Virus record (IMG/VR): IMGVR_UViG_3300035703_000116
Coordinates: 1 to 56,500 of that record
Direction: 5' to 3' (one strand)
Source of the DNA: a virus
Length of the DNA: 56,500 nt
Position 1 is the first letter of the stretch. Every line of letters begins with the position of its first letter. The notes beneath the pieces are model-generated. The model made no database searches, was not told where the DNA came from, and saw nothing but the letters and a program-made list of their open reading frames with translations. Below are positions 18,466 to 43,982 of the stretch, in pieces. A program made the position numbers and the translations under genes.

Positions 18466-18554
18466 TGATCTGCGGTTGTGAGTGAACGGCGAGGCCTTCG
18501 GCGTCGCTTGCTTTTGATCTTAAGCGATAGGTTGCGACTTTGTAGGTTCTGACT

Positions 18555-19160: not shown

Positions 19161-19173
19161 TAAATGAATGCGT

Positions 19174-21843: not shown

Positions 21844-21915
21844 AACAGCAAAACAACAAAGCACTTCTCTCTTTGCTGTTACAGCCATTATAGCACGTAT
21901 CACATTGCGTGTCAA
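21844..21915 (-). promoter_or_regulatory. Early promoter cassette P1
   Basis: TTGACA (21915-21910), 17-base spacer, TATAAT (21892-21887). The leader then folds into a 9-bp hairpin at 21844-21880 (AACAGCAAA with TTTGCTGTT). The first ATG, at 21821, has no Shine-Dalgarno. Confidence 0.85.
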
Positions 21916-21934
21916 GCATTTATCAATACGACTT

Positions 21935-22420
21935 TCAAAATAAATCATTGTACGCAACTAATTTATCATAGTAGAATCTATTGTTTGCATCTCTATAAAA
22001 CAGTCTCGGCGCATGATGCAACGAACCCAGGCAAATAACTATTTTCATCATTATGTTCTTTTTTCTATCTAGCAAACAAAACGACGTAACGCAAAACAAT
22101 CTTCTCAACGCATCTAAATACTCATTAACATACTCATGCAAATTATAAATCTTAAACTTGCTTTCATCAACAAACATCTCACGATTATCTTTCACGCATT
22201 GTCGAATCAACTCTTCAGATAAATCAACTGTATTCACAAAATTGTATTCATTCAAACAATCGTAGTTCTGCAAAGAAATGCACGGGAGCGATAAAGGATC
22301 TTCAGGGGCGAGAAATAAAAGTCTCTGTGTTTTGTATCTTTGCAAATAACGTTTTGCTTCGCTGAGTCTTCTTTTAACTTCAGCTGCAGTGAAATGATCT
22401 GTTGCAGAAACTTTGGGCAT
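21935..22420 (-). CDS. Hypothetical early protein
   Basis: 161 residues. The N-terminal helical part (TAAEVKRRLSEAKRYLQRYK) is followed by mixed alpha/beta, with CVTSFCLLDRKKNIMMKIVI near the end. Not recognised. Upstream bases 22421-22515 hold GC-rich stems separated by GGATTC-like steps, and I could not place a promoter there. Confidence 0.6.
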   Translation of the reverse strand: MPKVSATDHFTAAEVKRRLSEAKRYLQRYKTQRLLFLAPEDPLSLPCISLQNYDCLNEYNFVNTVDLSEELIRQCVKDNREMFVDESKFKIYNLHEYVNEYLDALRRLFCVTSFCLLDRKKNIMMKIVICLGSLHHAPRLFYRDANNRFYYDKLVAYNDLF

Positions 22421-22520
22421 TGCATGAATCTAGTACGAGAATCAATTTTCTCTCGCTCGCCAAGAATCGCCCCGAGAAGCCCACTGAATCCCCTGCCCGC
22501 ATGAATCCCCCCTGGGGCAA

Positions 22521-22556
22521 ATAAAAAGCCCCTTCCAGACGATTCTGGAGGGGGCT
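22521..22556 (-). terminator. Intrinsic terminator ending P2 operon
   Basis: Minus strand: a 13-bp stem (AGCCCCCTCCAGA with TCTGGAAGGGGCT, one wobble) around a 4-base loop, followed by TTTTTATTT. Confidence 0.9.
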
Positions 22557-22605
22557 CACGAATCTCTCCGAGGGAGAGATCTATCGACAGGCGACAGAAA
22601 TCAAA

Positions 22606-22875
22606 TCATTTCAAATACTGAGGGCATTGTTTGATAACTGCAAGAAATGAATCAAGAACATCTCTGTCATACATCTTTCCGTTGTACTTAACTTTTATAG
22701 AAGTTCCCGTAGAAATGTAAGCTTCATCAATCGCAGCTTTTCTAGAATCTTCATCAGAAATTCCTAGCCCTCTGTATTCGCAATACTTTTCTGCATACAA
22801 ATTAGGGAGTACCTGCCCCGCATTAACAGCGCAGGGCGCAAGAATAAAAGCCAGCGTGAAAATGAGTTTTTTCAT
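22606..22875 (-). CDS. Small secreted protein, early
   Basis: 89 residues. Sec signal peptide MKKLIFTLAFILAPCAVNA with a likely cut after VNA. The mature part has two cysteines (YCEYRGLG and KQCPQYLK) and ISDEDSRKAAIDEAY. Function unknown. Last gene before the terminator of the P2 operon. Confidence 0.65.
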   Translation of the reverse strand: MKKLIFTLAFILAPCAVNAGQVLPNLYAEKYCEYRGLGISDEDSRKAAIDEAYISTGTSIKVKYNGKMYDRDVLDSFLAVIKQCPQYLK

Positions 22876-22899
22876 GATTGTTGTTTGTTGAGAATGAAC

Positions 22900-23091
22900 C
22901 TAAACGATTTCGTTTACAGAAATAACCTCCTTCGTTGAAAAATGCTTTTTGAAACGATCAATCGCATCTTGTTTTGTTTTGCACTCAGAAATAACTGTCC
23001 ACCCAATAAATCCCCGAGCTTTTGTATCTTCGAATAGAATACGAAACTTTCTGTATTTAATTGTTTCGTAGCTGTGCATTAATTTTTGCAT
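22900..23091 (-). CDS. Hypothetical early protein
   Basis: 63 residues: an alpha/beta fold with RKFRILFEDTKARGFIGWTV and a helix KTKQDAIDRFKKHF. Not recognised. Overlaps the upstream gene by 13 bases. Confidence 0.55.
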   Translation of the reverse strand: MQKLMHSYETIKYRKFRILFEDTKARGFIGWTVISECKTKQDAIDRFKKHFSTKEVISVNEIV

Positions 23092-23273
23092 GAGTGCGCA
23101 GAAATCATAACATGCTCAACATTCCCCTCAATAGAAAGCAATGCGTCATCAATAGATTTAATGACTGCACTATTTTCTTTGTAGACTTGAGGGAATTTAA
23201 TTTGCATACGAATTAATTCTGCACGATAATCAACAAGCGCAGTGCGAATTGTTGTTGAAGAAAGAATTGTCAT
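23079..23273 (-). CDS. Hypothetical early protein
   Basis: 64 residues, helical (TTIRTALVDYRAELIRMQIK; VIKSIDDALLSIEG). Not recognised. Part of the P2 operon. Confidence 0.55.
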   Translation of the reverse strand: MTILSSTTIRTALVDYRAELIRMQIKFPQVYKENSAVIKSIDDALLSIEGNVEHVMISAHSCKN

Positions 23274-23280
23274 GATTAAA

Positions 23281-23589
23281 TTAAGCGAATGAATTTTCTA
23301 GTGAGAATTGAACAAGTCGTGTGCGATCATCTTTGTACGCTCGCACTAAATCAAGTATGTCATCAACTTGATCCTCTTGCGTATTAAAATCCTTGCATAC
23401 TAACTTTACAAGCGAAACAAAATGATCGTCTTTGTCAAATAAGATCTCTCTGTTTTCGTCAATTTGCACGAATAAATCAATTGCTTTTTGAGTAATCTGC
23501 ATTTGCGGATTCTCAAAAAAGCCAAGCGTAGATAATCTTTCAAGTGCTCCAAAAACCCAAAGGACTTGACATGTTTTCTTGTCAATCAT
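23281..23589 (-). CDS. Hypothetical early protein
   Basis: 102 residues, largely helical and acidic (EDQVDDILDLVRAYKDDRTR). Not recognised. Its ATG shares bases with the stop of the upstream 44-residue gene (ATGA), so translation is coupled. Confidence 0.6.
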   Translation of the reverse strand: MIDKKTCQVLWVFGALERLSTLGFFENPQMQITQKAIDLFVQIDENREILFDKDDHFVSLVKLVCKDFNTQEDQVDDILDLVRAYKDDRTRLVQFSLENSFA

Positions 23590-23720
23590 AAATCCTCCTC
23601 GTTGTCGTAAAAATAATCGTCGTCAATGAAAAATGAATCATCGCATGTATCACTCATGCAATCAGAATCAAGCCAGGGAAATAAAGCTGATTCTTGCGCA
23701 AATTGTTCCCAGTCAATCAT
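23586..23720 (-). CDS. Tiny acidic protein, 44 residues
   Basis: Starts MIDWEQFAQESALFPWLDSD and ends with an Asp/Glu-rich tail (DDSFFIDDDYFYDNEEDL). About a third of residues are acidic, like DNA-mimic or enzyme-blocking phage proteins, but that is only an analogy. GAGG lies 11 bases before the ATG. Confidence 0.5.
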   Translation of the reverse strand: MIDWEQFAQESALFPWLDSDCMSDTCDDSFFIDDDYFYDNEEDL

Positions 23721-23723
23721 AAA

Positions 23724-24098
23724 TCAATCCTCAACACGTTCAGAAAAGGGTAGACGAGAAAGATTCCCGTGCTTTTTAATCGAATACAAAATGTATTCAC
23801 AAAACTCTTGTGCGTATTCTGCCTTGCAATAATCATCTCCTACGCGATACTGAACTTCTGTTTCGCAATCTGTCTCCTCTTGAAACTTTCTAACGTCACG
23901 AATCCAAACATAAATCTCCCACATCGGGCAGCACACCCCAAAGAAATCTTCGTGATCGCTTGTGTATTCACGAACAGAAAAAGAAACATACTGCTTCTCG
24001 TCTGAGAAATTAAATGTTTCGATCTCTTCAGAATCAATCCTGCCGCCGTGAAAACCTCGTGAGAAATCTTCCCAAGTGATCTGTTCTGTGATTTGCAT
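23724..24098 (-). CDS. Hypothetical acidic early protein
   Basis: 124 residues. Acidic and aromatic: TWEDFSRGFHGGRIDSEEIE, then a PMWEIYVWIRDVRKF strand region and a helical C-terminus KAEYAQEFCEYILYSIKK. Not recognised. Confidence 0.6.
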   Translation of the reverse strand: MQITEQITWEDFSRGFHGGRIDSEEIETFNFSDEKQYVSFSVREYTSDHEDFFGVCCPMWEIYVWIRDVRKFQEETDCETEVQYRVGDDYCKAEYAQEFCEYILYSIKKHGNLSRLPFSERVED

Positions 24099-24148
24099 TT
24101 GTCTAGAAAAAGAAACGTGTGTCGATTAAAAATCAGTCGAGCATACAT

Positions 24149-24403
24149 TTATGTGTGCGAAGACCCATCAGGTGAGACACACCCATACATTTTGCAGTTA
24201 GGAAGAAATCCAAACAAATAAACTTCTTTGCTTTGATCGTTAATTTGCTCACACATAAACTTTGCATCTCTGAGCATATCTTTAACTTTAACGTCAAGAA
24301 TCAATGCCCAAGTCAGCAATTTGGATTTTTGCGCTTCAGTCAATAACTGAAACACGTCATAATCAATCTCGTCAGAAACAAAAAGAGGGGCGCGGAAATT
24401 CAT
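24149..24403 (-). CDS. Hypothetical protein, first gene of P2 operon
   Basis: 84 residues from the ATG at 24403; the in-frame ATG at 24430 is too close to the hairpin. Contains TEAQKSKLLTWALILDVKVK and a C-terminal YLFGFLPNCKMYGCVSPDG. No Shine-Dalgarno. Not recognised. Confidence 0.6.
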   Translation of the reverse strand: MNFRAPLFVSDEIDYDVFQLLTEAQKSKLLTWALILDVKVKDMLRDAKFMCEQINDQSKEVYLFGFLPNCKMYGCVSPDGSSHT

Positions 24404-24437
24404 GATTGTCTGTGAAAAAGAAATGAACAAGAAATAA

Positions 24438-24509
24438 ATGCGAGAGAAAAGAAACTACTTCCTCTCCCTCGCATGTTGCTATTATAGCATGTCACACGTT
24501 ACGTGTCAA
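24438..24509 (-). promoter_or_regulatory. Early promoter cassette P2
   Basis: TTGACA (24509-24504), 17-base spacer, TATAAT (24486-24481). The leader forms a hairpin at 24438-24474 with 17 paired positions including G-U, a 3-base loop, a purine-rich 5' arm and a pyrimidine-rich 3' arm. The upstream gene's stop codon lies inside the promoter spacer. Confidence 0.9.
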
Positions 24510-24791
24510 GCATTTATCTGTCGTATCTTTGAATTTATCTTCTCGCTTCAGCAATTCAACTGCTGCGAGTTTTGCAATTACAAATAACTTAGCTTGCGTG
24601 AAAACAAACTGCTTTCTGTATTTACTCTTCAGATAACACAAAATGTTACCCGTGACAGAATCCCATTGCTTAATAGTTACATCCATAAATTGATCATGAT
24701 CTCTTGATTTACAAATGTGCTTGTAAGTTGTTGATGTTTTGACAATACGAATTACCTCGTCGTCAACAAATTTGTTTAAGCTGTCAGTCAT
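24492..24791 (-). CDS. Hypothetical early protein ending inside promoter P2
   Basis: 99 residues, helical and basic (KLFVIAKLAAVELLKREDKF). Its last residues, KCLTRNV, are encoded by the -35 element and spacer of P2. The start overlaps the stop of the upstream membrane gene (ATGA). Not recognised. Confidence 0.6.
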   Translation of the reverse strand: MTDSLNKFVDDEVIRIVKTSTTYKHICKSRDHDQFMDVTIKQWDSVTGNILCYLKSKYRKQFVFTQAKLFVIAKLAAVELLKREDKFKDTTDKCLTRNV

Positions 24792-24988
24792 TTTTCAAAG
24801 CAAATGTACTTGCCCCCAACAAATGCGTCTCGCAAGAAAACAAGGCGCTCCGGGGGGCAATTATGAAAAGCGTCATTGCTCAGCTTTTCATTAATAAATC
24901 TAGCACCAACAAACCCAATCGTTGTGCCCGCAAAAATTGCAGCAACTGCGTGAATGAACTCTTTGTGCTCAGAAAAGAAGTCTTTCAT
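24788..24988 (-). CDS. Small membrane protein
   Basis: 66 residues with one membrane helix at about 12-33 (FIHAVAAIFAGTTIGFVGAR) and a short tail ending CFEK. Topology and role unknown. Confidence 0.6.
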   Translation of the reverse strand: MKDFFSEHKEFIHAVAAIFAGTTIGFVGARFINEKLSNDAFHNCPPERLVFLRDAFVGGKYICFEK

Positions 24989-24991
24989 GAT

Positions 24992-25279
24992 TCAATCAAT
25001 GTGTTTGATGTAAAATCCTGCGGATTCCCAGGAAATAACCGAGTCGGGCGGATTGAAATCAGTTTTGATACTTGCAAAAAACTCTCCCTCCAATCCATGA
25101 ATTAAAGGGAGATCAACTTCCACCTCGCCATCAAAATAATCTTTCACCCACTGAATCACTTGAGTTTCTAAATCAAGAATGTCATCATCCTTGATTTCCT
25201 TGAAAAACTCTTCTCCTGATCTACATTCATAAATGTAGAGATAGCACTCGAATGGCGCAGATTTGCAAAGTTCAGTCAT
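24992..25279 (-). CDS. Hypothetical acidic early protein
   Basis: 95 residues: CYLYIYECRSGEEFFKEIKD, ETQVIQWVKDYFDGEVEVDL, and a late SVISWESAGFYIKHID. Predicted alpha/beta, acidic. Not recognised. Confidence 0.6.
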   Translation of the reverse strand: MTELCKSAPFECYLYIYECRSGEEFFKEIKDDDILDLETQVIQWVKDYFDGEVEVDLPLIHGLEGEFFASIKTDFNPPDSVISWESAGFYIKHID

Positions 25280-25299
25280 TTTGAAATTAAACGAGTGAA

Positions 25300-25674
25300 T
25301 TAAATGTAACCAGCGTCTTGGATGCCCGGCTCATCATAAAACCAGCTAACTGACGCATCTTCGTATTTTTCACGAAGTTTTTCACAAATACCGCAAGGCG
25401 GTGCCCATGCAGTCATAAATTCAATTTGCAAATACTCATCATGATCTTCAACAAAAGAAACATCTGCTGCACAAATGTCCCACTTTGTCCCCCAATTATT
25501 TACGCGCCATGAATACCAGCCGGGCGTAATTGAATCGCCCTGCGGCAACTCTTCTTCTGAAGGTTGAGGGATCAATACATTAAATGGATGATCTTGAGAA
25601 AATAACTCTTTAATCTCTTTGATCTGATCTGCGTCAGCAGAAATCGAAACGCGATTTTCGCACCAGTTAGGCAT
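25300..25674 (-). CDS. Api92-like protein with ferredoxin-like domain
   Basis: 124 residues. Starts MPNWCENRVSISADADQIKE, then FNVLIPQPSEEEL, NWGTKWDICAADVSF and FMTAWAPPCGICEKL. MPNWCxN..., FN.LIPxP, NWGTKWD and TAW.PP together are the signature of the YubB/Api92-like family in phages and plasmids. Biochemical role is not known. Confidence 0.8.
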   Translation of the reverse strand: MPNWCENRVSISADADQIKEIKELFSQDHPFNVLIPQPSEEELPQGDSITPGWYSWRVNNWGTKWDICAADVSFVEDHDEYLQIEFMTAWAPPCGICEKLREKYEDASVSWFYDEPGIQDAGYI

Positions 25675-25704
25675 GACAAAAACTCCGTGTTGAACTAAAT
25701 AAAA

Positions 25705-26136
25705 TCAGAGACAGCAAACGTAATCAATAACTTCTTGCGGCAATTCTTCTTTCAGCCACGCAGTTCCGTATTTGTAACCGTCATCAACTAACGCATCAAA
25801 CCGCTGCAAATACTCACATGCGTCGATGTAGAAATTATCAAACTCAACACCCGAAGCTTTTGCTTGTCGCAAGATTTCTTCTTGCACAAATGTTCCAGCG
25901 CGCATGTCATTTAAGTGCCAACGCTTCCAAATTTCATAAAGTCGCGCAGGAATGATTTCCTTCACTTCATCATGAATCTGCCCCCAGCCAAGCAAATTCT
26001 TCTCTGATTTGAGAAGTTTTTTGCCCGTGAAATAAGTGCCAACAATGCTCAGAGTCTTGAAAGACTTTTTCTCTTTGATTGAAATTTCAAGCGTGCAAGA
26101 GAATTTTTCTCCTGCAAAGAAAACAGTTTTTAGCAT
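25705..26136 (-). CDS. Conserved phage protein with WHLNDMRAGT motif
   Basis: 143 residues. An N-terminal beta part (FSCTLEISIKEKKSFKTLSI) is followed by GWGQIHDEVKE, IWKRWHLNDMRAGTFVQEE and a C-terminal YKYGTAWLKEELPQEVIDY. The WHLNDMRAGTxxQE and YKYGxxWLxEELPxEV motifs recur in phage and mobile-element proteins of unknown function. First gene of the P3 operon, without Shine-Dalgarno. Confidence 0.7.
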   Translation of the reverse strand: MLKTVFFAGEKFSCTLEISIKEKKSFKTLSIVGTYFTGKKLLKSEKNLLGWGQIHDEVKEIIPARLYEIWKRWHLNDMRAGTFVQEEILRQAKASGVEFDNFYIDACEYLQRFDALVDDGYKYGTAWLKEELPQEVIDYVCCL

Positions 26137-26159
26137 GAGATTTTTTGATGAAAAAACAA

Positions 26160-26231
26160 ATACAAGCGAAAAAGAATTGCCCTCTCTCGCTTGTATGACT
26201 ACATTATAGCACGTTACATGCTACGTGTCAA
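26160..26231 (-). promoter_or_regulatory. Early promoter cassette P3
   Basis: TTGACA (26231-26226), 17-base spacer, TATAAT (26208-26203). Hairpin at 26160-26196 with 17 paired positions and a 3-base loop, the same geometry as P2 but different bases. The spacer carries CACGT/ACGTG arms. The upstream gene stops at the TAA of the cassette (26238-26236). Confidence 0.9.
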
Positions 26232-26235
26232 GCAT

Positions 26236-26742
26236 TTATTTATCGTCTTTTGCAAAATACCCATCCCACCAGAGTTTTGATTCTTCTATTTGCGCAAGCA
26301 TTTTGTCGCAAAACTTTGCAGCATCTTCTTCTGTTTCATAAATAAATGGATCGTGATCAAATTCACCAGCACCGTAATAACTAACAAGCGTCAAATAAGC
26401 ACTTGCGCATTTAACAACATCTTGCGATGTCAGTAAATTTACAAATTCATCAAGCTCCCATCCAGTGAAATCAGCAACATTCTCTAGAAAATCACTAAAC
26501 CATTCTTTGTGTCTAGGGTGAAATCTATTTGTTCCAACGCCCAGGAATTCTCCGCTGTCATTAACAATTTTGTGACAGCGCCCTAATTCAACTTCACTAC
26601 GCCTTTTGAAATCCTCATCGTAAATTAAAACAATGGGATTGTAAATTCCTCGGCGATCAATGCAAACAAATGCGCCTCCGTATTGAAAAGGATCGGCGTC
26701 ACCAAGATTTGCAATGCAGAAATAGCTAGGCTGCGCTGTCAT
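26236..26742 (-). CDS. Conserved phage hypothetical protein
   Basis: 168 residues. SYFCIANLGDADPFQYGGAF, FVCIDRRGIYNPIVLIYDED, and a helical half with VADFTGWELDEFVNLL, then ASAYLTLVSYYGAGEFDHDP. The CIANLGD...GG..V..DRRG pattern appears in other phage proteins of unknown role. Ends KDDK at the P3 cassette. Confidence 0.65.
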   Translation of the reverse strand: MTAQPSYFCIANLGDADPFQYGGAFVCIDRRGIYNPIVLIYDEDFKRRSEVELGRCHKIVNDSGEFLGVGTNRFHPRHKEWFSDFLENVADFTGWELDEFVNLLTSQDVVKCASAYLTLVSYYGAGEFDHDPFIYETEEDAAKFCDKMLAQIEESKLWWDGYFAKDDK

Positions 26743-26978
26743 GATTTGATGTCAGAGAATTTTGTGATTTCCAAGTCAGACTTGGGCAAAGAAATTAGCG
26801 CTTGCTCAAGAACAATTTTTGCAAACTGCTCTTCAATTTTTTCCGAGTCGATAATTTTCCCGTCTTGCGTTCTTTTCTCAATGAGAAAATAATCATCAAT
26901 GCGACGAAAATGAACAATGACAAGTTGTTCGTTGCGACGATCAAAAAGTTTGAATTCGTAAATCTGTTTAATGTTCAT
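26739..26978 (-). CDS. Hypothetical early protein
   Basis: 79 residues; beta segments FKLFDRRNEQLVIVHFRR then a helix SEKIEEQFAKIVLEQALISL. Not recognised. Four-base overlap with the downstream gene. Confidence 0.6.
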   Translation of the reverse strand: MNIKQIYEFKLFDRRNEQLVIVHFRRIDDYFLIEKRTQDGKIIDSEKIEEQFAKIVLEQALISLPKSDLEITKFSDIKS

Positions 26979-26981
26979 GAA

Positions 26982-27272
26982 TCAATCCTCGTCCTCGAAT
27001 GAAAATCCTTCGGGCACTTCCCATAGATCGCCGTCTTGATGCAAACCCCACTTCACGCCATCACTAATCCATTCGGCATCACGAAGAATTTCATCCCAAG
27101 AATCCCAATACAATTCATGATCTGGTCCAGCTTGACAAATAAGAACGGGCTCGTAGGGAATGTGCATTTCCTCAGCAATTTGCGGGTCAATGTGACTGCA
27201 ATAAATCTGAGGGATGTAAATGCCGTTTGTGTCAGAAACAACAAGAATCGGATCTAAATTTTTGCTGGACAT
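26982..27272 (-). CDS. Hypothetical protein, first gene of P4 operon
   Basis: 96 residues: LDPILVVSDTNGIYIPQIYC, then DSWDEILRDAEWISDGVKWG, LHQDGDLWEVPEGF and an acidic tail. The WDEIL...W...LWxDGDLW block recurs in phage early proteins of unknown role. No Shine-Dalgarno. Confidence 0.6.
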   Translation of the reverse strand: MSSKNLDPILVVSDTNGIYIPQIYCSHIDPQIAEEMHIPYEPVLICQAGPDHELYWDSWDEILRDAEWISDGVKWGLHQDGDLWEVPEGFSFEDED

Positions 27273-27300
27273 GAGATTTTCTGAGAAGCAAAAGAAACAA

Positions 27301-27370
27301 ATGCGACAAAAGAATGATTACTTCTCTCGTCGCATGTGTGTATTATAGCACGTTACATGCTACGTGTCAA
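27301..27370 (-). promoter_or_regulatory. Early promoter cassette P4
   Basis: TTGACA (27370-27365), 17-base spacer identical to P3, TATAAT (27347-27342). Hairpin at 27301-27335 with 14 paired positions and a 7-base loop. The upstream gene stops at the cassette TAA. Confidence 0.9.
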
Positions 27371-27374
27371 GCAT

Positions 27375-27572
27375 TTATTTGTCATCTTTTACAAAGAAAT
27401 GAGTTCCGTTCAGCGTTACGTTATCTCGATGCGTTAGTCCAATGCAATAATGATTGTCCAAACATTTAATTAAATACTGTCCTATAGAATCTTTGATTAC
27501 AATGTATGATTCAGAGTCGCAATAAACAATCTTGCCTGAATCAACTAAATCGCGAATTTGCTGTGCATTCAT
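27375..27572 (-). CDS. Hypothetical early protein
   Basis: 65 residues from the ATG at 27572: QQIRDLVDSGKIVYCDSESY, then DSIGQYLIKCLDNHYCIGLT. Small beta fold. Not recognised. Ends KDDK like the unrelated gene before P3. Confidence 0.6.
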   Translation of the reverse strand: MNAQQIRDLVDSGKIVYCDSESYIVIKDSIGQYLIKCLDNHYCIGLTHRDNVTLNGTHFFVKDDK

Positions 27573-27574
27573 AA

Positions 27575-27823
27575 TCAATCGTAATAAGCATAGCGATCGT
27601 TATACATTTCGCACGCAAATTTTTCTTCGTTGCTAATTTCTTCCTCGCCGTAATAACCCTCTAAGAAATCTGGGTCAAGCTCATTTTCTTCAAGCATGTC
27701 ACGAATTTGATCGTGACTCATCCATTTAAGACAAGCGGCTAACAAATTACTTTCACTCGTTCGCTCTTCATCAATCAAATCGTATGCGTACTGAAGTGGG
27801 TTGCTGCTGAAAAGATCTTCCAT
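27575..27823 (-). CDS. Acidic conserved phage protein
   Basis: 82 residues from the ATG at 27823. SNPLQYAYDLIDEERTSESN is followed by LLAACLKWMSHDQIRDMLEE and NELDPDF, a pattern (LLxxxLKWMSxDxxRxMLxxNEL) seen in other phage proteins. Acidic, helical. Function unknown. Confidence 0.65.
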   Translation of the reverse strand: MEDLFSSNPLQYAYDLIDEERTSESNLLAACLKWMSHDQIRDMLEENELDPDFLEGYYGEEEISNEEKFACEMYNDRYAYYD

Positions 27824-27879
27824 TGTAGTAAAAGTAAAAAAACAAATCAAAACGAAATCAAAATGAAATCAAAATGAAA

Positions 27880-28065
27880 TCAGAATGGGTTGTCCCAGGA
27901 ATTTGCCTGACGATCAGTAATCTCGCCATCACGATGCAACTGATCTATGAATTGCACAAATGCTTGGCGCTTTGCGCAAATGTCGTCAGCATAATTTGGG
28001 GCGCGAAACTTAATGTGATACTCCCATTCATCCTTGAAAATAGCAATCGCTTCTTGTTTTGTCAT
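27880..28065 (-). CDS. Hypothetical protein, first gene of P5 operon
   Basis: 61 residues from the ATG at 28065. Helical: TKQEAIAIFKDEWEYHIKFR, then KRQAFVQFIDQLHRDGEITD and the end RQANSWDNPF. Similar short proteins ending WxNPF occur in many phages. No Shine-Dalgarno. Confidence 0.65.
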   Translation of the reverse strand: MTKQEAIAIFKDEWEYHIKFRAPNYADDICAKRQAFVQFIDQLHRDGEITDRQANSWDNPF

Positions 28066-28093
28066 GTTTTTTTGAGAAAGAAATGAAACAGAA

Positions 28094-28161
28094 ATGCGAG
28101 AGAGAAAATAATTCCTCGTCTCGCATGTTGCTATTATAGCACGTAATAGCTTACTTGTCAA
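28094..28161 (-). promoter_or_regulatory. Early promoter cassette P5
   Basis: TTGACA (28161-28156), 17-base spacer, TATAAT (28138-28133). Hairpin at 28094-28126: 8 bp, one bulged C, 6 bp, 4-base loop. Confidence 0.9.
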
Positions 28162-28184
28162 GCATTTATTTATCTAGCAAATAA

Positions 28185-28463
28185 TCAGAGCTGACAATTC
28201 TCATCAATTGCCCAAAGATACAAACGCATCTCTGAGACCTCTAAATCCAGATCACAATACTCATCACGCTCAATAAACAGCCAGAAATAACTTCCTGCGC
28301 CATCATTGTTTTGCATAATCCAATGCCCACCACGATAAACAAAAATCTTTTCTGGTGGAGACTGCTCAAGCTGAAAAATCTCTACAGCATCAAAATCAAT
28401 CTTTTTGAATTCTTCGACAGAAACCTCTTTGCGAGAGTTCTGCCAGTCACGAAACTTTGACAT
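28185..28463 (-). CDS. Hypothetical protein, P6 operon
   Basis: 92 residues from the ATG at 28463: SKFRDWQNSRKEVSVEEFKK, IFVYRGGHWIMQNNDGAGSY, then WLFIERDEYCDLDLEVSEM. Predicted beta-rich. Not recognised. The only gene clearly driven by P6. Confidence 0.6.
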   Translation of the reverse strand: MSKFRDWQNSRKEVSVEEFKKIDFDAVEIFQLEQSPPEKIFVYRGGHWIMQNNDGAGSYFWLFIERDEYCDLDLEVSEMRLYLWAIDENCQL

Positions 28464-28486
28464 GTTCTGAAATAAATAAATTGACA

Positions 28487-28549
28487 ACAGCAAGAAACTT
28501 TGCTTTTGCTGTATGACTAGATTATAGCACGTATGACGTTACGTGTCAA
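28487..28549 (-). promoter_or_regulatory. Early promoter cassette P6
   Basis: TTGACA (28549-28544), 17-base spacer, TATAAT (28526-28521). Hairpin at 28487-28512, 7 bp with a 12-base loop. The upstream gene stops at the cassette TAA (28556-28554). Confidence 0.88.
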
Positions 28550-28553
28550 GCAT

Positions 28554-28814
28554 TTATCTAGCTATGTTTTTAGTGAAAATTTTACTTTCACAAACATCGC
28601 ACTTCAAAAATCTGTCATTTTGATTCACGCAGTCTGTTTTAATAATCCAGGGCGCAAGTAATGCAAATCTTTCTCTAAAAATATGACAACAATGACTGCA
28701 GGCAACGAAATTTCCTTGCGTCAAAACATATCTTGTTCTCGCATGTTTCTTTTGTGTTAAATACTGCGACGCAAGAATGTCTGCGGTGCGCAATGAAAAA
28801 CTCTTTGAACTCAT
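28554..28814 (-). CDS. Zinc-binding small protein
   Basis: 86 residues from the ATG at 28814. Two cysteine pairs (CSHCCH and CDVCES) suggest one zinc site in a treble-clef or ribbon fold. Upstream bases 28827-28934 are GC-rich with a CCCCTCG/CGAGGGG stem, which could terminate the methylase transcript or act as a leader. Function unknown. Confidence 0.55.
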   Translation of the reverse strand: MSSKSFSLRTADILASQYLTQKKHARTRYVLTQGNFVACSHCCHIFRERFALLAPWIIKTDCVNQNDRFLKCDVCESKIFTKNIAR

Positions 28815-28934
28815 CAAGCTATACAAGAAATGAATAATCGCTTAGCCCGCTCAGAATCCTCTGTGAGCCTCAGAAATCCCCTCGGCGTGGGATAAATCCT
28901 TCGAGGGGAGACAGTCTCGCTGCGGGCGCAGGAA

Positions 28935-29558
28935 TCAGGGGCTCAGCGGTAATAAAGCACCCCACTGCTCACCCATCGCCTCAGCCACTCCCAAATAAGT
29001 TCGACTGCGATTTTTTTGTCTTTCCGGGCCGGGCGGTTCATAATGAACGCGATCAGTCTCTGAAGGATGCAGAAATAAAATCTGCTCCTCTACGTTATTT
29101 GTTACTTTAAGTTTGGGAAGATTCTTCAACCAAAAGCACGTTTGCTTTCGCTCTGGGTGCCCAAAGAAATACGGCTGAATCTTTTGTGAATAGTTTGGAT
29201 TGATCAATCTCTGCCTTGCGTGTGAGTGCATGATTGGGTTTTCAATACAGATTCTTGGGCACGGGTGTGCAAGAAATAAATTAAAAAAATCAACTGCGTT
29301 AAGCATTTGATCCCATCGCCCAGGAGTTTTTCTCAACCATTGAACACCAGACTGCGCGAGATAAGTGCAAGGCGGATGAGAAATAACAAGATCCCAGTCT
29401 TCAGAAAGAATTTCCAGCACATCTCCCTGATAATGTTTGCTGTTTTCTGTTGTTGGGAGCTCTGTTTCAAGAAGATCGCAGGAGACTGCGTAATGCCCTC
29501 TCTTTGCAAATGCTTCGCGCACCCTTCCTGAAAATTCACAGGCGACAAGAACTTTCAT
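28935..29558 (-). CDS. DNA methyltransferase-like protein (C5-cytosine type)
   Basis: 207 residues. Motif I-like VLVACEFSGRVREAF (3-17), an acidic CDLLETE strand end, a GDVLEIL segment, and SHPPCTYLAQSG (60-71) where the PPC cysteine takes the place of the catalytic PCQ. Then ICIENP near 115 as in motif VI (ENV). This is the short phage-type family often annotated as C5 methylase. It could protect phage DNA; the target sequence is unknown. Confidence 0.65.
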   Translation of the reverse strand: MKVLVACEFSGRVREAFAKRGHYAVSCDLLETELPTTENSKHYQGDVLEILSEDWDLVISHPPCTYLAQSGVQWLRKTPGRWDQMLNAVDFFNLFLAHPCPRICIENPIMHSHARQRLINPNYSQKIQPYFFGHPERKQTCFWLKNLPKLKVTNNVEEQILFLHPSETDRVHYEPPGPERQKNRSRTYLGVAEAMGEQWGALLPLSP

Positions 29559-29734
29559 AATGTTTTTTTGATGCGAGCATGTAAATCTTTGTAGATCACT
29601 TTAGCCTCTTTCCATGCACGCTGATTTTCTTCTTTGTCACCGTTTTTCACAAGAGGGACAAAGTTTTCTCCGTAGTTGTGCATGAAAGAAATAGCACTGA
29701 GTAGTGCTATTTTCTCCTTCTTACTTAGGCTCAT
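29555..29734 (-). CDS. Hypothetical early protein, 59 residues
   Basis: Helical and basic: SLSKKEKIALLSAISFMHNY, then NQRAWKEAKVIYKDLHARIK. The stop overlaps the start of the methylase gene (ATGA), and its start overlaps the upstream gene by 14 bases. Not recognised. Confidence 0.6.
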   Translation of the reverse strand: MSLSKKEKIALLSAISFMHNYGENFVPLVKNGDKEENQRAWKEAKVIYKDLHARIKKTL

Positions 29735-30044
29735 TTCTCAACTGCTCAATCAACATTTCACATTCTTTAGTTTTTTGCTGAGACACAGTTTCACAAACAA
29801 TAAGAAGCTCCTCAACTGTTAGATGTTTTAGAAAGTTTGACTGCATGTCAGCAAATGGGGTGGCAGCTCCATAATCCTCCTCCTGTAGGCACATGCGAAA
29901 CAAATGAATCGCTGCCATCAAAAATTCTGATTCAAACAAATAAGCATACAGCAATTCCTCTGGGCTGAGTTTTGACGCATCTCGTTCACTGTTTTTCCAT
30001 GAACAATAATTGTCAAGCAGTTGATCAAATGTAATCACTTTCAT
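29721..30044 (-). CDS. Hypothetical early protein
   Basis: 107 residues, helical: ITFDQLLDNYCSWKNSERDA, SEFLMAAIHLFRMCLQEEDY and LKHLTVEELLIVCETVSQQK. Not recognised. Its ATG overlaps the stop of the upstream gene. Confidence 0.6.
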   Translation of the reverse strand: MKVITFDQLLDNYCSWKNSERDASKLSPEELLYAYLFESEFLMAAIHLFRMCLQEEDYGAATPFADMQSNFLKHLTVEELLIVCETVSQQKTKECEMLIEQLRNEPK

Positions 30045-30592
30045 TATCTTTTGAGCTCCTGTTTTTGCATAAAAGCTGAATCACAAATCTCTCGCATTGT
30101 GACAGGAGCTTCTCCGCCAGAATTATCATAAAGATACTGCGGAGTGGGATCAATAGTTCCGAACTCGATTGAAAACTCCCTGCCTTCGTTTGTCATGTAT
30201 TCAGCGAGTGCAAATAATTCATCGGGATCAGTATCTTCTTCTGTCGCGCCGGTCTTTTCTTTTAGCACCCAATGAACGTCGTGCGCATGACTAAAATTGA
30301 CCTGATAATAAACAGGCTGAGCTGCGTCAGATTTTGAAACAATCTGTGTCGCATCAATAAAGATTTCACATTCATCAGGGGAATCACCCCCATGAATTTG
30401 TGCGATCACCTGCAACACATCTTTCATGCCGCCCTCGCCATGCTCTTGAGAAACATTTTTCTTGAAGATTTTTTCCTCTTGACTGTAACGAACTTTAGTA
30501 CGCTGAACAATCCAAGTAGCAGTGTTTGACATTTCTTTATCGTAGTAATCTGGTGGATCAAGTGGGCGAGGATCGTAAATAAAATCAGACAT
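30044..30592 (-). CDS. Hypothetical early protein
   Basis: 182 residues from the ATG at 30592. PRPLDPPDYYDKEMSNTATW start, EGGMKDVLQVIAQIHGGDSP, then an alternating beta region with VYYQVNFSHAHDVHWVLK. Not recognised. Overlaps the upstream gene by 8 bases. Confidence 0.6.
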   Translation of the reverse strand: MSDFIYDPRPLDPPDYYDKEMSNTATWIVQRTKVRYSQEEKIFKKNVSQEHGEGGMKDVLQVIAQIHGGDSPDECEIFIDATQIVSKSDAAQPVYYQVNFSHAHDVHWVLKEKTGATEEDTDPDELFALAEYMTNEGREFSIEFGTIDPTPQYLYDNSGGEAPVTMREICDSAFMQKQELKR

Positions 30593-30788
30593 TTTGAAGT
30601 TCAGCAATGCGAGCCTGTGCAAATCGAGAACCAGGACCGTACTGTTCGTAAAGTTCCGGCCAAGCATTCAAAATCTTTGCTTTGTTTGTAAGATCAGCAG
30701 CGCAGTAAGCATCTGCGAGCTTTTTGCAAAATCCGCCGCCGTAACGACGCATCGTTTCCACAAAAATGTAATGGTCGTCTGGAGTCAT
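30585..30788 (-). CDS. Conserved small phage protein, first gene of P7 operon
   Basis: 67 residues from the ATG at 30788. IFVETMRRYGGGFCKKLADA, YCAADLTNKAKILNAWPELY, then EQYGPGSRFA. The GGxFxxxLAxAxxxADxxNxxxLxxAxPxLxxxYGPGS pattern is common in small phage proteins of unknown role. No Shine-Dalgarno. Confidence 0.65.
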   Translation of the reverse strand: MTPDDHYIFVETMRRYGGGFCKKLADAYCAADLTNKAKILNAWPELYEQYGPGSRFAQARIAELQNV

Positions 30789-30807
30789 GTTTCTGAAAGA
30801 TAAAAGA

Positions 30808-30863
30808 AGCACAGCTTTTGTGCTGTACGATTACATTGTACTACATGCTCGACGCATTGTCAA
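30808..30863 (-). promoter_or_regulatory. Early promoter cassette P7
   Basis: TTGACA (30863-30858), 17-base spacer, TACAAT (30840-30835). Short hairpin at 30808-30824 (AGCACA with TGTGCT). The upstream gene stops at the cassette TAA (30870-30868). Confidence 0.85.
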
Positions 30864-30867
30864 GCAT

Positions 30868-31170
30868 TTATTTGTCGTCGTCAAATTTGTAATTTTTTAG
30901 CCCCGTCTCAAGAGATCGACGCAGATTGCCAACAATTTTTTCAATCAAAGAAAGTCCCCTCAAAACTCTAAATAGAAAGTCAGGGCTGATTCTATCGTCT
31001 CGATGAATCAACTTTTCAGTTGTCGTAAATCTGCTTGAGCAATTTTTACAGACGCACCTCCTCTTGATTTCATTTGACTGGGGGCGAGATTCGATAACTT
31101 TTCTTTCCGTGCACTTACAAAAAGGACACTGCACGCCCCCTTTCCTCGCATTTAAGTTTTTATCTTTCAT
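30868..31170 (-). CDS. NrdR-like zinc ribbon protein without ATP-cone
   Basis: 100 residues. GVQCPFCKCTERKVIESRPQ then RRCVCKNCSSRFTTTEKLIH matches the zinc ribbon of NrdR (CPFC, V.ESR, RRR..C..C..RFTT.E). The following ATP-cone is missing; instead there is a helical tail. It could bind DNA as a small regulator. Ends DDDK at the P7 cassette. Confidence 0.65.
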   Translation of the reverse strand: MKDKNLNARKGGVQCPFCKCTERKVIESRPQSNEIKRRCVCKNCSSRFTTTEKLIHRDDRISPDFLFRVLRGLSLIEKIVGNLRRSLETGLKNYKFDDDK

Positions 31171-31571
31171 GCCAAATAAATCCTCCCATCATCATCAATG
31201 AGAGCAGTAAATTCAGGTTGAGACTGTGCGGCGTCAGTAAGAATTTGTGAAACCTCAGAACTCCAGTCGCCATCCCAAAATCCCGCGCCATGTCTGTTAC
31301 GAGTTAGCACGTAGTCATATTCAGTTTGATTTAATGCGGGCTGCTGGACATCATAAAAATCATCAATGCAATTCCACTTGTCTCCAATTGCTGCAGTGAT
31401 CTTTTCTTCAACGATTGAAATAAACTGCTGATACTCGGTGTAGAGCTTTTTGAGCGATTCTTCTTCAAAGTTTGCGATTGAATAATTCTCGTCAAGCGGA
31501 TCGCCGTATTCGTCGGAATTGGTGTATAAAACAACTTCAGCGAGCGCAGTTAGAGTTGGGTTCATTTCCAT
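31167..31571 (-). CDS. Conserved protein with RNRHGAGFWDGDW motif
   Basis: 134 residues. A helical middle (LKKLYTEYQQFISIVEEKIT), then DYVLTRNRHGAGFWDGDWSS, a motif (DFxLTRNGHGAGFWDG) common in proteins from phages and plasmids, of unknown function. Its stop overlaps the next start by 4 bases. Confidence 0.7.
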   Translation of the reverse strand: MEMNPTLTALAEVVLYTNSDEYGDPLDENYSIANFEEESLKKLYTEYQQFISIVEEKITAAIGDKWNCIDDFYDVQQPALNQTEYDYVLTRNRHGAGFWDGDWSSEVSQILTDAAQSQPEFTALIDDDGRIYLA

Positions 31572-31580
31572 GATTGATTC

Positions 31581-31895
31581 TCAGTAAACATTACCCAGCT
31601 TGAATTCATTGAGCGCAGACTGAGCAAGCTCGACGGCGACAAATGAAATAATCTCATTCTTTTTCTCAAAAACGAAATGCCTGTCTTCTGAGTATTTTGC
31701 CCAAAACAATGGATACCAGAGATGAACGAAGGTAGTTGCGCGAGAAACAGCGCTGGGCATGTAATCAAAATTGCCCTCTTGAGATTCTGCGTAAATCTTG
31801 CACAAATCTTTTAAGAGTTGATTGAACGTGCGCCCATCGTGATTCTCAACAAACAGCAATAAATGCTGAATGTCTTGCATGTGTCTGAGTTTCAT
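31581..31895 (-). CDS. Hypothetical protein, first gene of P8 operon
   Basis: 104 residues from the ATG at 31895. Helical: LLKDLCKIYAESQEGNFDYM, then NEIISFVAVELAQSALNEFK. Not recognised. No Shine-Dalgarno. Confidence 0.6.
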   Translation of the reverse strand: MKLRHMQDIQHLLLFVENHDGRTFNQLLKDLCKIYAESQEGNFDYMPSAVSRATTFVHLWYPLFWAKYSEDRHFVFEKKNEIISFVAVELAQSALNEFKLGNVY

Positions 31896-31913
31896 GAATC
31901 CACTGAAAAAGAA

Positions 31914-31972
31914 AAAGACCACTCTGTGTTGAGCGGTCTTTGTATTGTAGCGCGTTACTCGTTACTTGTCAA
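31914..31972 (-). promoter_or_regulatory. Early promoter cassette P8
   Basis: TTGACA (31972-31967), 17-base spacer, TACAAT (31949-31944). Hairpin at 31914-31941, 11 bp with a 6-base loop, followed by TTCTTTTTC, so it could also attenuate. The stop codon TGA of the upstream gene lies inside TTGACA. Confidence 0.85.
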
Positions 31973-32280
31973 GTATTTATTTCTTGAGCTTTATCACAAA
32001 TCTCTTTGTATGTGACAGCACGCATGTCGTCGTCAAATCCCTCTGCTTCAAGAATTTTCTCTCGCAGCTCAGAAAGAAGCTCGACGTGTTTCATGATTAC
32101 ATCAGCCTTGAAGGCAAGTGCTGAGTAAATCTCTCGACTAACCCACGGCGCAAAAAATGCAGAAATCTGCGCCCTTCTTTTTTCTTTTTTTAGTGCTTTG
32201 ACGCAATCCTCCATTTGCATAAATAAACCCTGCATCAAAGCATTAAGCTCGTGCAAATACAATTCAGACTGCAGTTTCAT
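31969..32280 (-). CDS. Hypothetical early protein ending in promoter P8
   Basis: 103 residues, helical and coiled: LHELNALMQGLFMQMEDCVK, ADVIMKHVELLSELREKILE. The TGA stop is part of the P8 -35 element. Not recognised. Confidence 0.6.
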   Translation of the reverse strand: MKLQSELYLHELNALMQGLFMQMEDCVKALKKEKRRAQISAFFAPWVSREIYSALAFKADVIMKHVELLSELREKILEAEGFDDDMRAVTYKEICDKAQEINT

Positions 32281-32282
32281 AA

Positions 32283-32741
32283 TTAGTTCAGAAATTGATT
32301 AGCTTTTCCATTGAAAACCAAATCGACGACCTCCTCAAAGGTGATCGGTATTACACAGTAATCAAAATCTCCATCACCCTTTATGATAAAGAAAAACTTA
32401 GAACTTTCAAGGATAATTTTGCGTTGAATCTCGCCAAGTCTATCATGCTTGAACATTCGCATCAGATTGACCTCTACTGCAGTGAGTTCATATTCTCCTT
32501 CCTCCATTCTTTCTTTTTCGTAAAGTTTACAGTACATTGGTAGAAATTGAGATCCAAACTCGTGAATCCACCAAAGGCGAACATCACCAGGTCGTGAACG
32601 ATTTACCAATTTTCTATCCCACACAGAAACATCCGTGCTATTGTGTTTAACGACATTCTCCGCCTCATAGCACATCCACTCGCATAGCGTTAAATTCCGC
32701 AAGTTGCGTTTAACGGCTTGTTGTCTCGTGAGGATTTGCAC
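32283..32741 (-). CDS. Hypothetical protein, first gene of P9 operon
   Basis: 152 residues if translation starts at GTG 32741. The open frame reaches 32777, but that lies inside the P9 -10 region. LRNLTLCEWMCYEAENVVKH, then VWDRKLVNRSRPGDVRLWWI and LVFNGKANQFLN at the end. Not recognised. The start is uncertain. Confidence 0.55.
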   Translation of the reverse strand: MQILTRQQAVKRNLRNLTLCEWMCYEAENVVKHNSTDVSVWDRKLVNRSRPGDVRLWWIHEFGSQFLPMYCKLYEKERMEEGEYELTAVEVNLMRMFKHDRLGEIQRKIILESSKFFFIIKGDGDFDYCVIPITFEEVVDLVFNGKANQFLN

Positions 32742-32767
32742 TTCTGTTTGTTTTATGGGACAAAGGT

Positions 32768-32796
32768 AGTATAGCATTTTACAGAAAAGGTGTCAA
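32768..32796 (-). promoter_or_regulatory. Early promoter P9 (diverged, no leader hairpin)
   Basis: TTGACA (32796-32791), 17-base spacer, TATACT (32773-32768). The flanking AAATGC is kept, but the spacer differs and I see no leader hairpin. The upstream endonuclease gene stops at the cassette TAA (32803-32801). Confidence 0.8.
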
Positions 32797-32800
32797 GCAT

Positions 32801-33661
32801 TTAAGTTGTACGTTTTTGATTATTTGCTGATAAACCACAAACAACCTCCTCTGGGGTATTTCCGCAAAGAACAATCTTGTAATAAAGAAAATGGTAGTCC
32901 AATTTGTATTCTTTAGCGAGATCAACAAGAGTTATGCTTTTATTGTAAAATTTAATATAAATTGTATTTCTTCTTCTCATCATATTCTCCCCTCTGGTTG
33001 CCCAGCCACAAAGGCCCGGGCCGTAAACCATGTTGTCTTTTTGAAAAATTTCCTTGTCAAGCTGATGATCGGCGGAAGGGCGAGGGCCAAGATCAAAATA
33101 AAAGTTCTGAAATGATCCTCCTTTATCTGGATTCCATCTATCGCAAACAGTTACACCTCTGGCTCCGTAATGAGCGTAACCTGCATTTGTCGGATCAAAA
33201 CACCTATTTAACATATGCCTCCACGCCTGATATTCTCTTGACTTCGACATCCCATGATCTGTTTTTAATTTGTTTGAGCAATCTAAACAGCAAACAGACT
33301 TGCCATGAACCAATCCAATTAGTTCAAGATTTTTTTCTATGCCACAAGAGCAACGAGCTAGTACCCGTCTAACCGGCTTGCCGGAGCGGACATTTGCCTC
33401 TACCTCGCAAATAATAGTCCAACTGCCAAATTTTTTACCAGGAAAAACATTAATACTCCTACGCTTTTTGCCACTGCATTCTTTGCAGCATGTTGATGTT
33501 TTGCTTTTTAACGCAACCTTTAAAACAAACGATTCATTTCCACATGAGCATCTGACAGGAACATGGAATACGCTACTTAATGAACTTTTCTTAAACTCGT
33601 CACCAATTACTATCCATTCACCAAATTTTTGGCCAATGGACAGTGGTATTCTTTTAGGCAT
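32801..33661 (-). CDS. Homing endonuclease-like protein with zinc-finger repeats
   Basis: 286 residues, same family as the gene at 4513-5463. Two N-terminal repeats (GQKFGEWIV...RCSCG...CCKEC; GKKFGSWTI...RCSCG...CCLDC), then YQAWRHMLNRCFDPT, YGARGVTVCDRW, a FQNFYFDLGPRP segment and a GLCGWATRGENMMRRRN block. The LDRID core is changed to LDKEIFQKDN, which may matter for activity. Sits at the early end of the minus-strand region. Confidence 0.7.
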   Translation of the reverse strand: MPKRIPLSIGQKFGEWIVIGDEFKKSSLSSVFHVPVRCSCGNESFVLKVALKSKTSTCCKECSGKKRRSINVFPGKKFGSWTIICEVEANVRSGKPVRRVLARCSCGIEKNLELIGLVHGKSVCCLDCSNKLKTDHGMSKSREYQAWRHMLNRCFDPTNAGYAHYGARGVTVCDRWNPDKGGSFQNFYFDLGPRPSADHQLDKEIFQKDNMVYGPGLCGWATRGENMMRRRNTIYIKFYNKSITLVDLAKEYKLDYHFLYYKIVLCGNTPEEVVCGLSANNQKRTT

Positions 33662-36763: not shown

Positions 36764-36798
36764 TTGACAGGAGTCTCGAACTACTGTACCATAGTTCG
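36764..36798 (+). promoter_or_regulatory. Promoter with 22-bp operator-like dyad for LexA-like gene
   Basis: TTGACA (36764-36769), 17-base spacer, TACCAT (36787-36792). CGAACTA (36777-36783) and TAGTTCG (36792-36798) are perfect inverted arms 8 bases apart that cover the -10 box, as expected for autoregulation by a dimeric repressor. Confidence 0.75.
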
Positions 36799-36803
36799 TA
36801 CCC

Positions 36804-43156: not shown

Positions 43157-43186
43157 TTGACAGGTCGTACGATCTGATGCTACCTT
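43157..43186 (+). promoter_or_regulatory. Promoter for recombination operon
   Basis: TTGACA (43157-43162), 18-base spacer with the palindrome TCGTACGA, TACCTT (43181-43186). The predicted start lies about 20 bases before the ERF ATG at 43212. Confidence 0.6.
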
Positions 43187-43211
43187 GCATCTGTTCAGCA
43201 CACAAGGCGGC

Positions 43212-43982
43212 ATGTCCGTTCATCAGAAGCTCATGCAGGCGCGTATCGCGCTTCAGGGCAAAAAGCTTTCAAAAAGCGGTAAAAACAAATTTGCTGGGTA
43301 CAATTACTTTGAACTTGGGGATTTTCTTCCCACTGTTCAAGAAATCTTTCTATCGCTCGGAATTTCGGGTGTTGTCAGCTACGGCAAAGACGAAGCCACT
43401 CTGACCATCACCGACTGCAGCAACCCCGACGACTGCATCGAGATCTCCAGCCCCATGTCCAGCGCTGCCCTCAAGGGAGCGCACGAGATTCAGAACCTGG
43501 GCGCTGTACAGACCTACCTGCGCCGCTACCTCTGGGTGACGGCCATGGAAATCGTTGAGCACGACGCCCTGGATGCCGTTCTGGGCAGCGATGCGGGCGC
43601 TGTGGCACCCAAGGTGGCTCCAGCTCCTGCGGCGACCCGAAAGCCCGTTGATGAAACCCCTGGCGGCCTCCCTGCCAGCGTTGCTTTTGCGCCCACCTCA
43701 GTCAACGAAAAGCTTGAAACCAAGCTGATGGATCTGGGTATTACGCAGTACGGAATCAAAACCGTGCTCACGATCACTGAATCCTTGAGCCTTGCAGAAA
43801 TCCCTGAAAACAAAGCAACGGCGCTGCTGAAAGCAGTTGGAAAGGATCACGTCAAGATGTTCAATCAGGGCAAGAACAGCAAGGGCGCACAAATTATTCC
43901 CGAGCCCGTCAGCGACAAAGTAAGCACTAAGTCGATTGATGATCTTGCAAAAGCTGCTGAAGATGCTTTTGGAGATGACTGA
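43212..43982 (+). CDS. erf: ERF-type ssDNA annealing recombinase
   Basis: 256 residues from the ATG at 43212 (AAGG 5 bases upstream). KFAGYNYFELGDFLPTVQEI, SSALKGAHE-like and LGAVQTYLRRYLWVTAMEIV, then EHDALDAVLG are the conserved ERF core. A Pro/Ala linker and a second helical domain (LMDLGITQYGIKTVLTITES) follow. It anneals single strands during recombination or repair and is paired here with the nuclease at 46880 and SSB at 47641. The core codons (43381-43560) are 61% G+C against 35% just upstream. Confidence 0.85.
   Translation: MSVHQKLMQARIALQGKKLSKSGKNKFAGYNYFELGDFLPTVQEIFLSLGISGVVSYGKDEATLTITDCSNPDDCIEISSPMSSAALKGAHEIQNLGAVQTYLRRYLWVTAMEIVEHDALDAVLGSDAGAVAPKVAPAPAATRKPVDETPGGLPASVAFAPTSVNEKLETKLMDLGITQYGIKTVLTITESLSLAEIPENKATALLKAVGKDHVKMFNQGKNSKGAQIIPEPVSDKVSTKSIDDLAKAAEDAFGDD

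Follow-up and report, generated by a model that had tools for sequence, protein, structure and literature searches.

A repeated early-promoter and stem-loop cassette in an uncultured phage, probably a family of recombining promoters

What maintains nine closely similar promoters in the early region of a single phage genome, and do they serve to bring new genes into it? The question is raised by the IMG/VR virus record IMGVR_UViG_3300035703_000116, which was analysed as one stretch of 56.5 kb (the window, W hereafter). In W, PHROGs were assigned to the portal (phrog_145), the terminase, the capsid (phrog_247), DnaB and a sigma factor. An earlier reading made from the letters of W alone (the sequence-only reading) had described a cassette of stop codon, promoter and hairpin in the early region, and had proposed that it moves or recombines as a unit, with the end of one gene and the start of the following gene both inside it. 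We consider it quite probable that the cassettes are instead a concerted family of sigma-70-type early promoters with 5' stem-loops, which recombine with each other and have mostly fixed positions in the genome.

The promoters and the stem-loops behind them

The pattern TTGACA-N17-TAnnnT was matched 13 times in W, against 0.44 matches expected, and 0 of 100 shuffled sequences gave 13. Nine of the 13 matches were on the minus strand between 21887 and 32796, and these nine head leftward operons of small genes, which bears out the nine-copy cassette of the sequence-only reading. They were named P1 (21887) to P9 (32768), equal to c9 to c1 (Table 1). The sequence AAATGCTTGACA was exact in eight of the nine cassettes, with AAATACTTGACA in P8 (31944-31972), and AAATGC stood right before TTGACA in eight, with AAATAC in P8. 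The -10 box was TATAAT in six cassettes, TACAAT in P7 and P8, and TATACT in P9; six promoters matched the consensus at 12/12 positions and three at 11/12, and TG preceded the -10 box in seven. Over 37 bp, the mean identity among copies was 0.68-0.77. We infer from this consensus match that the nine elements act as strong host sigma-70-type promoters, which would start early transcription anew at set places along the small-gene region. The AT-rich prefix is probably an UP-like element, placed before a consensus -35 box, a 17-nt spacer and, in seven copies, an extended -10.

A stem-loop was found 3' of the promoter in eight of the nine cassettes. P9 was without it (z +1.6), and for P1 (z -0.2), P6 (z -1.2) and P7 (z -1.6) the single stem fell short of significance. 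When 88 leaders from twelve genomes were folded, the median z was -3.6; an Rfam scan of W gave no family at its gathering score. The stem started 7 nt past the -10 box, which is the expected transcription start, in P2, P3 and P7, and 3 nt past it in P8, and P4 and P5 had a similar stem plus weak outer pairs. For eight cassettes, the predicted RNA start coincides with the first base of the stem-loop or is close to it.

A MAFFT alignment of the hairpins put the stems out of register, and an arm-swap test was used instead on the eight W cassettes, with the P9-type (c1) copies and B257 left out. Swapping the arms between W cassettes raised the mean energy from -15.7 (native) to -8.8 kcal/mol, and 0 of 2000 permutations were as low, the cut point being the native loop, which favours the native fold. 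By genome, p was below 0.05 in 10 of the 11 single genomes tested (G021, 0.0495), and was 0.086 in G007, which has four copies. The arms co-vary between copies and the structure looks selected, though every operon has a stem of its own.

The hairpins might be intrinsic terminators that insulate the operons, so that the unit would be a terminator plus a promoter. Five of the nine W hairpins (P2, P3, P4, P7 and P8) scored terminator-like, and the sequence after many stems was T-rich in the W and G004 lineages. However, this tract was variable and was poor in G009 and G007, which makes a terminator function doubtful in these two genomes. Moreover, a stem at or near the predicted +1 would stop its own transcript too, and two other terminator-like structures of W (20925-20900 and about 22560-22520) had GC-rich stems and uninterrupted T runs. 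We regard this explanation as rather unlikely. In a family of early promoters, the stem-loop would most likely protect the 5' end of the RNA, and it may also halt read-through from the preceding operon.

Homogenisation and exchange at mostly fixed sites

A portal search gave 80 loci, and the early regions of eight genomes were compared: W, G001, A250 and G006 (lineage L1), G003 and G004 (lineage L2), B257, and the distant G009, with A250 and B257 being partial contigs. Each genome had seven to nine cassettes, whose positions were mostly orthologous. More arrays were present in G007, G016 and G013 (other prefixes), G021 (the L1 prefix) and G010 (divergent). With one mismatch allowed, 12 of 21 records matched, W included; some had 1-3 sites, and several records were fragments. 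The search of relatives for the core, proposed with the sequence-only reading, thus found the array at mostly orthologous sites, although G009 had no P7 cassette between families 14 and 52 despite retained gene order (the 52-like frame of G009 was 41% identical over 39 residues, E 1.7e-10). The isolated cyanophages S-CBS1, S-CBS3, KBS-S-2A, S-LBS1 and S-2L showed no such array, the sole site of at least 10/12 being in KBS-S-2A. A megablast of W 20-34 kb against 50,697 phage records gave no match, and in a capsid-protein scan of genome contigs, 37 stretches fitted the pattern and 0 were confirmed as a relative.

The 8-bp prefixes of one genome resembled each other: in the six genomes of L1 and L2, the identities between copies were 0.82-1.00, and the values for B257 and G009 were 0.75 and 0.76, respectively. 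Between the L1 prefix (ATAAATGC) and the L2 prefix (ATTAGTAC), orthologous copies were 0.60 identical, the same as non-orthologous ones. The flanking 32 bases showed the usual pattern, with identities of 0.78-0.80 between orthologues within a lineage and of 0.29-0.38 between paralogues. For the spacer, which was less uniform than the prefix, the values were 0.47-0.62 between paralogues, and 0.81 and 0.71 between orthologues within L1 and L2, respectively. By these identities, the cassette prefixes are under concerted evolution, being alike within each genome and different between lineages. In B257, the first five cassettes had prefixes of the L1 type and the last three had prefixes of the L2 type; therefore, neither type excludes the other.

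Single exchange events can be read from the comparison. The W P3 spacer was identical to the W P4 spacer (17/17) and agreed with its own orthologues at 12-13 of 17 positions, while the P3 spacers of A250 and G006 agreed with each other at 17/17; on this pattern, the W P3 spacer is a conversion product, overwritten by that of P4. In G006, the P6 promoter was joined within the core to the P5 hairpin and its gene, and gene 21 was lost. Furthermore, the tail KDEK is common to the genes preceding P4 and P3 in G006, as KDDK is in W and G001, an only suggestive signal of homogenisation, as it concerns one position. Since the prefix and hexamers are nearly identical and the 17-nt spacer is shared in part, the copies would be sites of recombination, both among themselves and between co-infecting relatives. 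This would homogenise them per lineage, and would occasionally delete, fuse or swap an adjoining gene. Genes for an Erf-like annealase and an exonuclease are present in W, and the annealase may take part in such short-homology exchange.

The ends of the upstream genes were as the sequence-only reading had described them. The genes before P3, P4, P6, P7 and P9 end at one common TAA, 7 nt before TTGACA, and the stops before P8 and P2 are TGA codons within TTGACA and within the spacer, respectively; the tails KDDK before P3 and P4 and DDDK before P7 were also confirmed. The idea that the stop codon belongs to the cassette by design was rejected. Three frames are used by the stops, and the prefix is kept at P1 and P5 though their upstream genes stop 22-26 nt before TTGACA; the stop codon appears incidental and is not a fixed element of the cassette. 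The upstream genes would end in the cassette by abutting it and reaching its first in-frame stop.

Could the cassette still be a mobile module and the main vehicle for adding early genes? The G006 fusion argues for it, as do the P7 site missing from G009 with gene order kept and the genes that gained new ends at a cassette: gene 24 ends ...FFCKD* within an operon in G003 and ...FFVKDDK* abutting the cassette in W, and gene 51 of G001 reads on across the prefix into TTGACA. In B257, nine switches between L1-like and L2-like sequence were counted over 11.1-14.9 kb, with 17 of 162 windows undecided. Three of the nine, at c4, c7 and cx, had a cassette start no more than 80 bp away; judged by eye, the c4 switch falls in the opening codons of gene 21, and the one at c7 is close to the end of gene 27. 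Moreover, promoter-proximal genes were more variable than promoter-distal ones, and the gene 3' of a cassette varied more than the gene 5' of it. The 15-kb relative L257, whose early region is mosaic between two lineages, is useful for mapping recombination junctions.

However, the other six B257 switches were farther from cassettes, and the sites themselves were mostly orthologous in the eight genomes. Among the five complete early regions, the conserved junctions were 214/492 from gene to gene, 102/172 from cassette to first gene and 118/152 from last gene to cassette; with families in at least two genomes only, they were 222/424, 110/172 and 122/152. The ranking was unchanged in versions with seven genomes. 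These counts come from non-independent pairs, genes called by a simple script and hand-edited tables. Of the nine W-G006 gaps longer than 100 bp in W (21-34 kb), six were inside operons and one was at a cassette; of the other two, one spanned P9 and one was a diverged stretch ending at P8. Judged from these comparisons in a small set of genomes, the cassettes are not the chief site of gene gain or loss, and the direction of the junction counts is against such a role, cassette junctions being better conserved than those between genes. What remains of the mobile unit is sequence exchange and a part in gene junctions (the G006 fusion, P3 and P4 of W, gene 24 and G009). As the main vehicle of gene gain, it is very unlikely in view of the mostly fixed positions, the junction counts, the B257 switches and the stops in three frames.

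Inverted repeats in the spacers

The mean best spacer inverted repeat exceeded that of shuffles, which covered the first 14 spacer bases only, at p<=0.01 in nine of twelve genomes; the values were 0.053 in B257, 0.18 in G016 and 0.39 in G013. The dyads had forms such as CACGTA-N6-TACGTG and TAGCACT-N5-AGTGCTA. A half-swap test gave 0/500 for L1, p 0.02 for L2 and 0.03 for G009 and G007 together. At the best-scoring centre, it was not significant in B257 (0.18), G021 (0.85, four copies), G016 (0.14) and G013 (0.73), and it was 0.056 in G013 at the centre used by L1. When eight genomes were scanned with four dyad patterns, every match was at a cassette, and G010 and G013 were without any. This suggests that the spacer dyads are a putative operator for a protein.

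The array might be a regulon, in which a trans-acting regulator binds prefix and spacer and the copies are kept uniform by selection and not by recombination. The dyad tests above and the restriction of the matches to cassettes are in favour of it, and so is a likeness to the putative promoters with lineage-specific inverted repeats in cluster K mycobacteriophages, as far as the available passages on them go. On the other hand, the mosaic B257 has both prefix types, the dyads and half-swaps were not significant in several genomes, and the genomes are related, so that the tests are non-independent. A regulon explanation therefore seems possible but tentative. Another account, in which annealase-driven exchange rewrites prefix and spacer together, so that a lineage would switch its whole early-regulon operator with a changing regulator while the operon hairpins stay distinct, is considered unlikely.

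As for the regulator, W encodes a protein of 134 aa in which a LexA DNA-binding domain (E 4.6e-21) and no peptidase domain were found. Its gene is preceded by TTGACA-17-TACCAT overlapped by CGAACTA-N8-TAGTTCG, and looks self-regulated. Among the sequences searched by tblastn, the protein was found only in W and L257 and not in G001, G006, G003 and G004. It was rejected as the sole shared regulator, since these four genomes keep the dyads without it, which also counts against the regulon.

Some points weigh against the concerted promoter family. The tract behind the stems is only partly rich in T; P9 is without a hairpin, and three further stems are weak. The P8 hairpin looks like a good terminator, and the elements may therefore not all work alike. 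The uniform prefixes could reflect a lineage-specific binding factor instead of recombination. The B257 switches near cassettes are in no clear excess, since by estimate about one-fifth of the stretch is as near as this (80 bp) to a cassette start. Finally, the host range of W rests solely on gene similarity.

Neighbouring genes, host and known elements

Table 1. Positions in W of the cassettes and of the genes and tracts discussed
Feature	Coordinates	Strand	Remarks
P9 (c1)	32768..32804	minus	prefix TTAAATGC, TTGACA-17-TATACT; without clear hairpin
P8 (c2)	31914..31980	minus	ATAAATAC TTGACA-17-TACAAT; terminator-like hairpin 31941-31914
P7 (c3)	30809..30871	minus	ATAAATGC TTGACA-17-TACAAT; short hairpin 30828-30809
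P6 (c4)	28487..28557	minus	prefix, 12/12 promoter, weaker hairpin; joined to P5 in G006
P5 (c5)	28094..28169	minus	prefix, 12/12 promoter, hairpin; preceding gene stops 26 nt 5' of TTGACA
P4 (c6)	27301..27378	minus	prefix, 12/12 promoter; hairpin 27335-27301
P3 (c7)	26160..26239	minus	prefix, 12/12 promoter; hairpin 26196-26160; spacer as in P4 (conversion)
P2 (c8)	24438..24517	minus	prefix, 12/12 promoter; hairpin 24474-24438; TGA of preceding gene inside spacer
P1 (c9)	21852..21923	minus	prefix kept, 12/12 promoter, weak hairpin; preceding gene stops 22 nt 5' of TTGACA
Gene 21	28185..28463	minus	between P6 and P5; missing in G006 (fused cassettes)
Gene 24	27375..27572	minus	ends ...FFVKDDK at TAA of P4
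Gene 27	26236..26742	minus	ends ...YFAKDDK at TAA of P3
DNA methyltransferase gene	28935-29558	minus	phrog_757
HNH endonuclease gene	32801-33661	minus	directly before P9
LexA-type gene	36764-37208	plus	protein 36804-37208
Erf-like single-strand annealing protein	43185..43982	plus	putative role in short-homology cassette exchange
Sigma-70-type factor	53120-54106	plus	regions 1.2, 2 and 3 matched
AT-rich tract	18550-19170		between early and packaging genes

The HNH endonuclease gene is probably mobile, since its family is located before c3 in G006 and is absent from the compared regions of A250, B257, G003 and G004. The DNA methyltransferase gene is present in W, G001 and G003; its place in A250, G006 and B257 is held by family 53, which has no blastp similarity to it and which in G004 is directly after cassette c4. 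The sigma-70-type factor is related to cyanophage group 2 factors and may serve middle or late promoters. The AT-rich tract, with repeated TTATTTGTTAA-like words, is kept in G006 and G001 and is a possible replication origin.

The endolysin of W was 70% identical over 83% to that of Synechococcus phage S-CBS3, the sigma factor was 38-44% identical over partial length to those of S-CBS1, S-CBS3 and KBS-S-2A, and a virion protein was 66% identical to proteins of Puniceispirillum phage HMO-2011 and cyanophage S-RIM50. Because of these resemblances, the host is likely a picocyanobacterium. W, with portal phrog_145 and capsid phrog_247 in a record of 56.5 kb, does not appear to be T4-like: the best 20 of 163 portals were 24-27% identical to the W portal, and going by their names we take none of these 20 to be from a T4-like phage, the T4 core genes not having been searched singly. 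As a counterpoint, one W virion protein is 66% identical to a cyanomyovirus protein.

Morons of lambdoid phages, which are small genes with their own promoter and terminator, are single insertions, whereas W has an array of like promoters that head mostly multi-gene operons. Closer to the W cassettes are the promoter early stem-loops (PeSLs) of T4-like phages, reportedly described by Arbiol and colleagues in 2010 and by Comeau and colleagues in 2014; the title of the latter work presents the PeSL as a terminator plus a promoter. The PeSL stem-loop is reportedly an effective terminator, and PeSL copies are said to drive much gene gain and loss. W shares with these elements many copies, in a variable small-gene region, of a predicted strong sigma-70-like early promoter (11-12/12 in all nine copies) with an adjacent stem-loop (eight of nine, three of them weak). 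It also shares recombination between copies that alters gene content, with one clear case, the G006 fusion. Unlike PeSLs, the W cassettes are in a phage not T4-like in appearance, their positions are mostly fixed, and they are not the main sites of gain and loss. Their stem-loop is at the predicted 5' end of the transcript, with a terminator role doubtful in part of the family, and their spacers have inverted repeats. The cassette works like a PeSL but is a variant of that kind and not a member, because the T4-like genome and the role of chief driver of gene turnover are both lacking.

In the archaeal tailed virus HGTV-1 (Sencilo et al. 2013, cited in PMC3950731), a conserved motif stands before most open reading frames on one side of the genome. 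According to the citing passage, this motif has a promoter-like box and an inverted repeat, was likened to PeSLs by the authors and was proposed to act in transcription and genome shuffling (PMC3950731). PeSL-like arrays outside T4-like phages are therefore already in print, as far as that passage tells. Unlike those of W, the promoters of this archaeal virus are TATA-box-like.

The ESAS of cluster K mycobacteriophages, in the passages available, have SigA-like -35 and -10 boxes 17-18 bp apart and an imperfect inverted repeat that differs between subclusters. Like them, the W cassette is a repeated intergenic element whose promoter is overlapped by a lineage-specific inverted repeat (9/12 genomes, p<=0.01). 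Those passages link ESAS to a 13-bp translation-start repeat and judge its inverted repeats unlikely to be RNA hairpins, whereas the W promoter is followed by a co-varying RNA hairpin. The 13-bp sequence GGGATAGGAGCCC was not noticed in the W leaders, for which no dedicated search was made. The Class I intergenic repeats of halovirus HF2 (56-58 bp) are found with early and middle genes and are promoters by reporter assay; unlike in W, these promoters are archaeal, and the passages on the HF2 repeats give no stem-loop or recombination role. For cyanophages, no literature report of such an array was found beyond a remark on S-PM2, in a coverage that most subscription journals lie outside.

The W cassettes would thus extend PeSL-like arrays, so far described for T4-like phages and proposed for HGTV-1, to a group of uncultured phages whose hosts are probably cyanobacteria. 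They offer a case in which a static skeleton and a role in recombination are separable, and a natural test of concerted promoter evolution. Furthermore, they point to a putative regulator of early phage transcription.

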